A program made the translations under genes and the position numbers. The notes under the pieces are model-generated. The model did no database searches and was not told the DNA's origin. It worked only from the letters and a program-made list of their open reading frames with translations. This document shows, piece by piece, positions 50,928 through 55,354 of a DNA stretch of 64,000 bases (position 1 is the stretch's first letter; every line of letters starts with the position of its first letter). The stretch spans positions 1 through 64,000 of the forward strand of contig JAAEZH010000031.1 in NCBI GenBank assembly GCA_018222965.1, given 5' to 3'. This DNA is from Bacteroidota bacterium. Its GTDB lineage: Bacteria; Bacteroidota; Bacteroidia; Chitinophagales; Saprospiraceae.

Positions 50928-52013
50928 CTACTCCTTTTCATCTACCAAAGGCTGGTTCATTACCATGTTTTGATGGTTGATGGACTCCTGATGCACTGAT
51001 TTTAAAAAGACAGAAACAAAGTCCGGACTCAATCCGTGAGCTGCTGCACGTTGTTGCGCATGCTCCAAAATCTCATTCCAACGCGTTGGCTGAAGGATCG
51101 AAATGTTGTTCTTTTTCTTGTAGGTACCTATCCGCTCAGCAAGCTTCATCCGCGCTCCTAAAAGTCGCAGCAATTCGCCGTCAATTTCATCAATCTCATG
51201 GCGCAAATGTTCCAGAGACTCCAGAAACTCCGGATTATCTGTTTCGACATTCCGGAATACCAGCTCACCCAATAAGTCTTTAAACTGAGCAGGGGTGATT
51301 TGTTGGGCTGCATCACTCCAGGCCTCATCGGGAGTCGGATGGACTTCCGTCATCAGCCCATCAAAGTTGAGGTCCATAGCTTGCTGGGCCACTGCCTGCA
51401 AGGTATCCCGACGACCACAAATATGGCTGTTGTCGCAAATGATCTCAATATTTGGAAATTGACGTTTTAGCTCAATGGGTATCTGCCAGCGTGGCACATT
51501 CCGAAAAGAGGATTGCCCGTGAAAGGAGAACCCGCGGTGAATTACAGCCAGCTGTTCCAACCCGGCTTTGTACAGACGCTCCAATGCCCCCATCCAAAGT
51601 TTCAGATCCGGGTTGATGGGATTTTTTACAATGACCGGAATTTTGGTTCCCTCCAGGGCATCCGCGATTTCCTGTACAGAAAATGGATTTACCGTTGTAC
51701 GGGCACCAATCCACAAGACATCTACCCCGTGCTTGAGGGCTTCAAATACATGCTCGCGATTGGCTACCTCGGTAGTCACCTTCAAGCCTGTTTCCTGCTT
51801 TACCTCCTGCAACCAGGCCAGGCCCTTACGGCCCACGCCCTCAAAAGAATCTGGTCGGGTACGGGGTTTCCAAATACCTGCCCGGTATAGGTCTATGTCT
51901 AAAGGCGCCAGATTGCGGGCGGTTTGCAATACCTGTTCGCGGGTTTCTGCGCTACAGGGTCCGGCAATTACAATCGGACGTTTCTTTTTATCGAAGATGG
52001 GTTGAATATTCAT
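50928..52013 (-). CDS. Bifunctional DAHP synthase / chorismate mutase
   Basis: A 361-residue fusion. Residues 1-260 are a type I-beta DAHP synthase (KRPIVIAGPCSAE, RAGIWKPRTRPDSFEGVG, ICDNSHICGRRD, DGLMTEVHPTPDEAWSD) that condenses phosphoenolpyruvate and erythrose 4-phosphate at the entry of the shikimate pathway. Residues about 270-350 are an AroQ chorismate mutase (LRHEIDEIDGELLRLLGARM, KLAERIGTYKK, RWNEIL), which makes prephenate. This fusion is standard in Bacteroidota. It is the last gene of the pheA operon, so the first and the branch-point steps share the same attenuated transcript. Confidence 0.95.
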   Translation of the reverse strand: MNIQPIFDKKKRPIVIAGPCSAETREQVLQTARNLAPLDIDLYRAGIWKPRTRPDSFEGVGRKGLAWLQEVKQETGLKVTTEVANREHVFEALKHGVDVLWIGARTTVNPFSVQEIADALEGTKIPVIVKNPINPDLKLWMGALERLYKAGLEQLAVIHRGFSFHGQSSFRNVPRWQIPIELKRQFPNIEIICDNSHICGRRDTLQAVAQQAMDLNFDGLMTEVHPTPDEAWSDAAQQITPAQFKDLLGELVFRNVETDNPEFLESLEHLRHEIDEIDGELLRLLGARMKLAERIGTYKKKNNISILQPTRWNEILEHAQQRAAAHGLSPDFVSVFLKSVHQESINHQNMVMNQPLVDEKE

Positions 52014-52913: not shown

Positions 52914-54173
52914 CTATTTTCTTTGTTGGCCTTTCGGCGAATTAGCCTGTAGCCGGATTCCCAAACTATTGGAATCTGATGAATTCATTTTCTTTCCGCG
53001 TGCAGCCAGCTTTTCGACCCGATGGATAGCTTCCCGAAAAACGGTCTCTTCGCTACACAGCGAGATTCGAATGTAGGCGTTGCCCTGCTCTCCAAAGATC
53101 CCGCCGGGGGTAATAAAGAGGGCCGTCTCTTGCAATAGATGATCCGAAAATTCAAAACCGTTGCTCACCCATTCAGGAACTCTGGCCCATACAAACATTC
53201 CGGCTTGATCCCGCTTGTAATGACAGTTTAGCAGGTCCAGTAATTGATGTACGACCTTTCGGCGCGACCGATAAATTTCATTCAGATCTGTATACCAGGA
53301 TTCACTCAACTGCAGGGCTTTTACACTGGCCAGCTGCATGGGCTTAAACTGCCCCGAGTCCATATTGCTCTTAAAGCGCAACACAGTTTGCAGCAATTCT
53401 TCATTGCCAAACAAAGCACCGATGCGCCAGCCTGCCATATTGTGTGATTTACTCAGTGAGTTCATCTCCAGCACAACTTCTGAAGCACCTTCGACGGCCA
53501 GCAGAGAACAGGGATCATTGAGGATAAAACTATATGGATTATCATGGACCAGCAGGATCTCGTGCTTTCGGGCAAATTGCACCAGACGCTGAAACAAGGC
53601 TTTATTTCCTCTCGTACCGCTTGGCATATGCGGGTAATTGAGCCACATGATACGCACAGAGTCCAGGTCCAACTGTTCCAGGGCCTCAAAATCGGGCATC
53701 CAGTTGCGTTCCGGTTTTAAGTCATAAGTCAGGGGAGTGGCACCTGCCAGTCTGGTTGCAGAAGCATAGCTGGGATATCCGGGATCCGGCACCAAAGCGA
53801 AATCTCCTTCTTCCAGAAAGGACATGGCGATATGCATGATCCCTTCCTTTGATCCAATGAGTGGCAATACTTCCCGGTCGGGATCAATGGCAACCTGGTA
53901 AAATCGCTGATACCATTCGGCGAAAGCCGCCCGAAGTTCAGGGATACCGCGATAGGACTGATACCCATGATTATCCGGCAAACTACTGCTGTGCGCAAGC
54001 GTTTCAATCACTTCCGGGGCAGGAGGCAGATCCGGACTGCCAATGCCCAGATTGAGTATCGGCACTCCGGCCTCTTTCATGCGGGCAATTTCAGCCAGTT
54101 TTTTGGAGAAGTAGTACTCCCCCACCCTGCTGAGGCGCTCCGCTTTCTTGAATGTTATTTTTGATGAGCTCAT
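52914..54173 (-). CDS. Class I/II PLP aminotransferase (aromatic pathway)
   Basis: A 419-residue fold type I aminotransferase. LNLGIGSPDLPPAPEVIE, VPDPGYPSYASATRLAG, WLNYPHMPSGT and the PLP-lysine box NSLSKSHNMAGWRIG are all present; the arginine for the substrate carboxylate lies in AYIRISLCSEE. Its place between pheA and tyrA makes phenylpyruvate and hydroxyphenylpyruvate the likely acceptors, although the enzyme also resembles aspartate and LL-diaminopimelate aminotransferases. Two TTCGSCGAA copies fall in this gene (52933 and 53916). Confidence 0.93.
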   Translation of the reverse strand: MSSSKITFKKAERLSRVGEYYFSKKLAEIARMKEAGVPILNLGIGSPDLPPAPEVIETLAHSSSLPDNHGYQSYRGIPELRAAFAEWYQRFYQVAIDPDREVLPLIGSKEGIMHIAMSFLEEGDFALVPDPGYPSYASATRLAGATPLTYDLKPERNWMPDFEALEQLDLDSVRIMWLNYPHMPSGTRGNKALFQRLVQFARKHEILLVHDNPYSFILNDPCSLLAVEGASEVVLEMNSLSKSHNMAGWRIGALFGNEELLQTVLRFKSNMDSGQFKPMQLASVKALQLSESWYTDLNEIYRSRRKVVHQLLDLLNCHYKRDQAGMFVWARVPEWVSNGFEFSDHLLQETALFITPGGIFGEQGNAYIRISLCSEETVFREAIHRVEKLAARGKKMNSSDSNSLGIRLQANSPKGQQRK

Positions 54174-55049: not shown

Positions 55050-55068
55050 TATTTTTACTTATGCCAAT

Positions 55069-55124
55069 AAAAAAAGGCCCCGTAAACGAGACCTTTGCCA
55101 ACCGGAATACGATCCGGCACGGGG
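55069..55124 (-). terminator. Attenuator terminator 2 before pheA
   Basis: Minus strand: CCCCGT (55124-55119) pairs with ACGGGG (55083-55078) and encloses an inner CCGGA/UCCGG hairpin; CC and seven T (55075-55069) follow. The 5' arm CCCCGT is also complementary to CGCGG, the sequence right after the stop codon of leader peptide 2, so the two pairings exclude each other. Confidence 0.75.
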
Positions 55125-55135
55125 TAAAGTCCGCG

Positions 55136-55192
55136 TCAGGGTTTACTGATAAAATACCAGTAAGAATAATATTGGTTCGTATTTCTGGTCAT
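55136..55192 (-). CDS. Aromatic leader peptide 2 (MTRNTNQYYSYWYFISKP)
   Basis: An 18-residue frame ATG 55192 to TGA 55136 with four Tyr, one Trp and one Phe in a seven-residue core (YYSYWYF). It sits between two intrinsic terminators and ahead of pheA, the classic place of an attenuator peptide. Its ATG comes three bases after the T run of terminator 1. A TTACTG/CAGTAA stem (on the plus strand 55143-55148/55158-55163) lies over the Tyr-Trp-Tyr codons and would be opened by a stalled ribosome. Uncharged tRNA-Tyr, -Trp or -Phe would stall translation here and favour readthrough into pheA. Confidence 0.82.
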   Translation of the reverse strand: MTRNTNQYYSYWYFISKP

Positions 55193-55195
55193 GGC

Positions 55196-55224
55196 AAAAA
55201 AAAAGTCCCGGAAAACCGGGACTT
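55196..55224 (-). terminator. Attenuator terminator 1
   Basis: Minus strand: AAGTCCCGG pairs with CCGGGACTT around TTTT, followed by nine T. The middle GGTTTTCCGG can instead pair with CCGGGGAAACC (55257-55247), which directly follows the stop codon of leader peptide 1, giving about ten pairs with one bulge: a ready antiterminator. Confidence 0.9.
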
Positions 55225-55257
55225 ATTAGTTAGAAACAACAATGATGGTTTCCCCGG

Positions 55258-55317
55258 TCAGGCGGTAGCTTGATCGAAATAAAACCAAAAGTAAAAAGTG
55301 TTATTGTTGCGTTCCAT
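55258..55317 (-). CDS. Aromatic leader peptide 1 (MERNNNTFYFWFYFDQATA)
   Basis: A 19-residue frame ATG 55317 to TGA 55258 containing FYFWFYF: four Phe, two Tyr and one Trp in seven consecutive codons. It lies directly downstream of a consensus promoter, with the -7 element ending 5 bp before the ATG, so the mRNA would be nearly leaderless. A strong terminator follows 34 nt after the stop. The peptide would stall ribosomes when charged tRNA-Phe, -Tyr or -Trp is scarce. A chance run of seven aromatic codons at this place ahead of pheA is very unlikely. Confidence 0.85.
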   Translation of the reverse strand: MERNNNTFYFWFYFDQATA

Positions 55318-55322
55318 GTGTA

Positions 55323-55354
55323 CAAACGTATGTTATAAATCTGGTAGAATCAAG
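55323..55354 (-). promoter_or_regulatory. Promoter of the aromatic operon (CTTG-N20-TACGTTTG)
   Basis: On the minus strand TACGTTTG (55330-55323) is an exact -7 element and CTTG (55354-55351) a 3/4 match to the -33 box at 20-bp spacing. The predicted start of transcription, about 4 nt downstream, falls at or within 3 nt of the leader peptide 1 ATG. Confidence 0.75.

Follow-up and report, generated by a model that had tools for sequence, protein, structure and literature searches.

The operon for phenylalanine and tyrosine synthesis described here is in all likelihood controlled by two complete ribosome-mediated transcription attenuators, which follow each other in series on one transcript. 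The operon lies on the minus strand of a 64,000-nucleotide stretch of DNA from a member of the Saprospiraceae, which we call the window. Tandem attenuators had been proposed in an earlier note on this DNA, and the proposal is now strongly supported by conservation of the arrangement, by covariation of each post-stop strand with the arm of its own terminator and by folding under constrained ribosome positions.

The region upstream of pheA extends from 55391, where an unrelated gene ends, to the start of pheA (55049), and the gap is filled by a promoter and two consecutive leader units. The first structural gene, pheA, encodes a prephenate dehydratase (PF00800; 54180-55049). It is followed on the same strand by a class I/II aminotransferase (52914-54173), a prephenate dehydrogenase of the tyrA type (PF02153; 52069-52908) and a DAHP synthase fused to a type II chorismate mutase (50928-52013). 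These assignments by Pfam agree with the earlier description of the operon as the Phe and Tyr branches plus DAHP synthase/chorismate mutase, and the predicted gene content fits the synthesis of both amino acids.

Promoters of Bacteroidota have the consensus TTG-N17-23-TAnnTTTG. Upstream of the leaders we found TTG (55353-55351), a spacer of 20 nt and TACGTTTG (55330-55323), which together (55323-55353) match this consensus exactly; the motif is kept in relatives. A scan for an E. coli-type promoter before the first leader ORF gave none. Thus the consensus promoter postulated earlier is present in its Bacteroidota form and absent in the E. coli form. The end of the -7 motif is separated from the ATG of the first ORF by about 5 bases in the genus of the window (55323-55317) and by about 20 nt in most relatives, and judging from this spacing, transcripts of the window's genus probably have little or no 5' UTR. 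Leader 1 may be translated there from leaderless or nearly leaderless RNA.

Each of the two units between promoter and pheA consists of a short ORF rich in aromatic codons, a stop codon, an antiterminator strand and an intrinsic terminator. In unit 1, ORF 1 (55258-55317) encodes MERNNNTFYFWFYFDQATA with 4 Phe, 2 Tyr and 1 Trp, and its homologue in a relative of the same genus (L002) is MITSTNNRYFWFYSETATA. The antiterminator strand, or segment 2, is CCGGGG (55252-55257); it abuts the stop codon and pairs with the 5' arm of the terminator. A further helix, P1, is formed by the first codons of ORF 1 (55303-55316) and a 3' strand at 55231-55243, and was identified from the fold with the ribosome at the stop codon and from covariation. 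Terminator 1 (55196-55224) is AAGTCCCGG-TTTT-CCGGGACTT with nine T (55204-55196), and its hairpin (55224-55203) has a free energy of -15.4 kcal/mol. Unit 2 repeats this order with ORF 2 (55136-55192), which encodes MTRNTNQYYSYWYFISKP with 4 Tyr, 1 Phe and 1 Trp (homologue MTKNANQYYPYWYFTSYP in L002), an antiterminator strand of about CGCGGACTTT (55126-55135) abutting the stop codon and assigned by pairing and fold, and terminator 2 (55069-55096), AAAGGTCTCG-TTTA-CGGGGCCTTT with seven T (55075-55069) and a hairpin (55096-55073) of -12.2 kcal/mol. Both terminators were recovered independently by a pattern scan. The fold of the 291-nt leader reached -85.5 kcal/mol compared with -61.1 kcal/mol for shuffled sequences (z = -5.6). 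Peptides, stop codons, post-stop strands and terminators are all located where the earlier note had placed them, with two minor amendments: the post-stop strand of unit 2, given there as CGCGG, does follow the stop codon directly but is longer (55135-55126), and the units, described as Phe-rich and Tyr-rich with one Trp codon each, have the mixed codon makeup listed above.

Directly behind the stop codon of each unit lies a sequence that is similar to the 3' arm of the terminator and able to pair with the 5' arm. Pairing of post-stop strands with their own terminator arms scored 12.5 to 15.3, while shuffled strands scored 6.0 to 7.3. When own arms were compared with the arms of other units, the preference for the own arm had a z of 12.1 in the pooled set of 159 units; in a normalised permutation test z was 6.8 for first, 3.3 for second and 6.9 for single units. 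Helix P1, in which the first ORF codons pair with the spacer 3' of the post-stop strand, covaried likewise in permutations with z-values of 11.5 for first and 6.8 for single units and a weak 2.0 for second units.

Nascent RNA was then folded with a ribosome footprint of 29 nt. With the ribosome on any aromatic codon the terminator arm was captured by the post-stop RNA with a probability of about 0.9 in both window units. With the ribosome at the stop codon the probability of capture was 0.07 and 0.12, respectively. A switch of more than 0.3 was seen across the Saprospiraceae in all first units (100%), in 98% of second units and in 95% of single ones, so that both window units and almost every relative behaved as anticipated for folding under constrained ribosome positions. 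When the 12 post-stop bases were shuffled, 65-75% of cases still switched by more than 0.3. Thus part of the fold switch is a generic masking effect, the simulation by itself is weak, and the own-versus-others covariation tests weigh more. At equilibrium, full-length unit 1 folded into the terminator at every ribosome position; the decision must therefore come during transcription, when the nascent RNA pairs first, as in other attenuators. For unit 2 the outcome hinged on the start of the folded segment. If the T run of terminator 1 was included it paired with the spacer of unit 2 and no switch appeared, while a fold begun at the ATG switched clearly. Hence the fold depends on where the RNA behind the ribosome really begins.

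The arrangement is widespread in the family. Of 398 Saprospiraceae genomes searched, 259 have pheA, and 118 upstream regions of at least 450 nt from 56 sampled genera were analysed. Two non-overlapping aromatic leader ORFs were found at 64 loci, three at 1, one at 48 and none at 5. Two or more are thus present at 65 of the 118 loci and in 34 of the 56 genera. In the comparison with dinucleotide shuffles, two or more were scored at 52.5% of loci and in 0.34% of shuffles, and a chance origin of the doubling is ruled out by these shuffles together with the conservation. A strict detector, which demanded an ORF and a terminator after it, counted at least 51 loci with two complete units, a lower bound because some second units lie beyond its distance limit from pheA. 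The tandem is present in the relative from the window's genus (L002/L031, JAGQWR010000012.1) and also in a closed genome with a single contig (L088), so it is not an assembly artefact. The earlier note had named a lack of conservation of the two peptides despite conserved pheA as grounds for giving up the reading; the upstream regions of relatives show the opposite.

The second unit is not essential, since about 40% of the Saprospiraceae loci (48 of 118) have a single unit. A tree of PheA implies about seven changes in unit number among the Saprospiraceae, which means that units were repeatedly gained or lost. Outside the family, tandem aromatic leaders precede pheA in two genomes of another family of the class (L168 and L181, family f70), which suggests an older or a repeated origin. 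Other families and orders mostly have one aromatic leader before pheA, and none was found before pheA in the relatives from Balneolales and Rhodothermales.

The two units also retain separate identities across the Saprospiraceae, as judged from their peptides. A GQP-stop ending occurs in 17 of 49 first units and 3 of 49 second units, an N-terminal NQ motif in 18 of 49 second and 3 of 49 first units. Second leader ORFs are marked by a conserved N-terminal PNQ motif (CCTAACCAA-like). The ending is often YGQP-stop in first units and G(S/T)P-stop in second ones, e.g. in L003, L073, L082 and L135. Proline is the last residue in 68 of the 159 units, encoded by several synonymous codons, and might slow termination at the stop codon.

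When relatives were scanned for the promoter motif as TTG-N16-25-TAnnTTTG, it was found within 60 nt before the first or only leader ORF in 89 of 110 cases. Before the second leader ORF it was found in 1 of 49 cases, and in 9 of 590 control windows. Because the motif precedes ORF 1 and not ORF 2, a polymerase very probably has to get past terminator 1 in order to transcribe unit 2, and the motif positions indicate that both units very probably share a transcript. Each unit is complete by itself, which would suit a pair of alternative promoters with a single attenuator behind each, in place of one serial leader. We consider this highly improbable in view of the promoter counts and of the short distance in the window, only a few bases, between the T run of terminator 1 and the start codon (ATG) of ORF 2. 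The single-unit loci and the changes in unit number on the PheA tree could also indicate that one unit is functional and the other a duplicated or decaying relic. Yet ORF, post-stop strand, terminator and switch are kept in both units in 49-51 genomes despite strong sequence divergence, the terminators of both units are as strong as those of single units, and the unit-specific peptide motifs persist across genera; decay of one unit is therefore a poor prospect. The equal strength of tandem and single terminators also means that the doubling is not simply a repair of weak terminators, and weaker terminators in tandem genomes are ruled out as its explanation. Finally, the ORFs might act otherwise, as reinitiation antennas, through peptide products or in Rho control, with the terminators being incidental. 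Leader ORFs serving as reinitiation sites have been proposed for several phyla including Bacteroidetes (PMC4833913), and the C-terminal proline before the stop codon in 68 of 159 units might slow release. On the other hand, reinitiation was argued for gaps near 10 nt (PMC4833913), and here a long distance and a terminator separate the ORF stops from pheA. Moreover, the clustering of aromatic codons agrees with the products of the operon and the post-stop strands covary with the terminator arms. We give such other modes of action hardly any credence and favor tandem attenuation.

The codons of the leader ORFs bear on what the two gates would sense. In the window all Phe, Tyr and Trp codons of both units are codons 8-14 and fall within the antiterminating zone, so either gate can respond to each of the three amino acids, and a lack of any one of them can open both. 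According to the fold model the likely logic is a shortage of any of Phe, Tyr or Trp that is tested twice, not a test of the amino acids in sequence. A different possibility is that the gates are specialised, the first mainly for Phe and the second mainly for Tyr, and would together form an AND gate with two amino acids as inputs. In the window's genus, both genomes have a strongly Tyr-rich unit 2 with 4-5 Tyr and 1 Phe, their first units having 4 Phe/2 Tyr and 2 Phe/2 Tyr (the relative has 2 Phe, 2 Tyr and 1 Trp in unit 1 and 5 Tyr, 1 Phe and 1 Trp in unit 2), and in the family second and first units are set apart by their more frequent NQ and GQP motifs, respectively. Over the 49 tandem genomes, however, the ratio Phe/(Phe + Tyr) is 0.60 in first and 0.58 in second units (Wilcoxon p = 0.48), Trp codons are present in 12 of 49 first and 15 of 49 second units, and the first aromatic codon is only slightly shifted to Tyr in unit 2 (27 Tyr/21 Phe compared with 18 Tyr/28 Phe, p = 0.10). 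In addition, each window unit has Phe, Tyr and Trp codons in the antiterminating zone. A Phe-only first gate and a Tyr-only second gate are thus ruled out as a family rule, and the sequence of a Phe gate and a Tyr gate suggested in the earlier note is at best a feature of the window's genus, as represented by two genomes. Specialised gates are, all in all, unlikely.

With tandem attenuation as the preferred reading, RNA polymerase would start just upstream of leader ORF 1 and a ribosome would begin to translate this ORF. If charged tRNA-Phe, tRNA-Tyr or tRNA-Trp were scarce, the ribosome would stall in the aromatic run, leaving the post-stop strand free to capture the 5' arm of the next terminator, and the polymerase would read through. 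If the tRNAs were charged, the ribosome would reach the stop codon and cover the post-stop strand, so that the terminator could form. Helix P1 would hold untranslated leaders in the terminating form. ORF 2 and terminator 2 would repeat the same test, and the operon would be read only if both gates opened. Translation of the ORFs, stalling of the ribosome, termination and the purpose of two gates are what we infer from the observed anatomy and its conservation, the own-arm pairing, the single promoter motif and the dependence of the in silico fold on ribosome position. Most likely the two gates multiply, which would lower the leak and make the operon respond more steeply to the combined Phe and Tyr supply. 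Tentatively, one may go further and picture a family-wide two-gate circuit with conserved separate identities, multiplied responses and a steep AND-type control of the pathway shared by Phe and Tyr, in which the sensing of Phe and Tyr is starting to divide in the window's genus; we consider this less likely than not.

Leaders of other amino acid operons in the Saprospiraceae are mostly single. Trp-rich leaders were found before trpE at 18 loci, and each of these is single; the His-rich leaders of hisG are tandem in 2 of about 40 loci, namely those of G017 and of the genome of the window itself. These data rule out that amino acid leaders are generally doubled, and doubling is mainly a trait of the operon making two amino acids, pheA. 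No leader was found directly upstream of thrA and ilvB, the latter of which may sit inside an operon. Attenuation of this type looks like a standard device of the Saprospiraceae. The trpE leaders (L197 and others) have runs of two to four Trp codons, most with a detected terminator after them; that of the window's own genome is single and reads MTFFQNNNWWWLNLTRTSEMAALLF. At hisG of the same genome (L224, G000:C38:24137-27682) there are two His-rich leaders, MFNNNHHHLSLALC and MIQAIHHHHSFTRSKPDRW, at about 1164-1209 and 1343-1403, with a terminator after each and hisG from 1501; G017 (L225) has a double His leader as well. About 22 nt separate the first His leader of L224 from the end of a tRNA-Phe(gaa) gene (1069-1142), so that this gene and the his attenuator may be co-transcribed or have a common promoter.

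In Proteobacteria, attenuation by leader peptides is a classical mechanism, and ribosome-mediated attenuation is textbook knowledge for single leaders. In the pheL, trp and his attenuators a short ORF rich in codons of the product is followed by an intrinsic terminator before the first gene, with which an antiterminator is mutually exclusive, and the position of the ribosome decides between the two. The window leader resembles enterobacterial pheA (pheL) and the trp/his class in having a cluster of end-product codons between promoter and first gene in both units, an intrinsic terminator between leader ORF and gene and, in silico, an exclusive antiterminator that is set by ribosome position. 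In contrast to this class it has two complete serial units, mixed Phe and Tyr codons and an antiterminator that abuts the stop codon. Among known RNA families, the Rfam model Phe_leader (RF01859) scored 25.5 bits in the window with a gathering score of 55 and matched none of 20 tandem relatives; T-box models had no match in the window at E-values up to 1, nor in the 20 relatives at gathering scores. Rfam thus gave sub-threshold matches only and holds no family for the tandem leader.

The closest precedent is the mgtCBR leader of Salmonella, in which two short ORFs (mgtM and mgtP) each lie in an attenuation-like element (PMC3641672). Called singular by its authors, it senses ATP and proline and does so without intrinsic-terminator structures (PMC3641672). 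Like the mgtCBR leader, that of pheA has a pair of short ORFs with attenuator structures in a single transcript. It does not share the two different signals or the lack of intrinsic terminators: both of its units have intrinsic terminators and codons of the same end products, and its layout is shared widely within one family. Tandem riboswitches and tandem T-boxes, too, are two serial cis-acting gates on one transcript, such as the two-signal tandem riboswitch leader of metE with its two intrinsic terminators (cited in PMC3641672). They bind a metabolite or uncharged tRNA directly, however, while the sensor of the pheA leader would be the translating ribosome. Within the same phylum, leader-peptide attenuation was inferred at amino acid operons of Flavobacterium psychrophilum, whose pheA has an unassigned structured 5' element conserved in Flavobacteriaceae; the passages on these elements mention no tandem arrangement (PMC9723704). 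Unlike the Saprospiraceae, other orders of Bacteroidota mostly show single leaders before pheA. A search of the open full-text literature for tandem attenuators or two leader peptides yielded only mgtCBR and unrelated papers, and comparative surveys from 2004 and 2010 might mention one. The view that no tandem leader had been described in Bacteroidota therefore stands as far as the searchable literature goes.

Taken together, the serial attenuator pair in 34 of the 56 sampled genera would constitute a natural two-stage gate. Its logic would be the product of two readthrough probabilities, with an OR over amino acids within each gate. The Saprospiraceae, a family little studied with respect to regulation, appear to rely on leader peptides to attenuate their Phe/Tyr, Trp and His operons, and to double the attenuator chiefly where one pathway yields two amino acids. 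The pattern also provides an annotation rule for many short unannotated ORFs of the Saprospiraceae.
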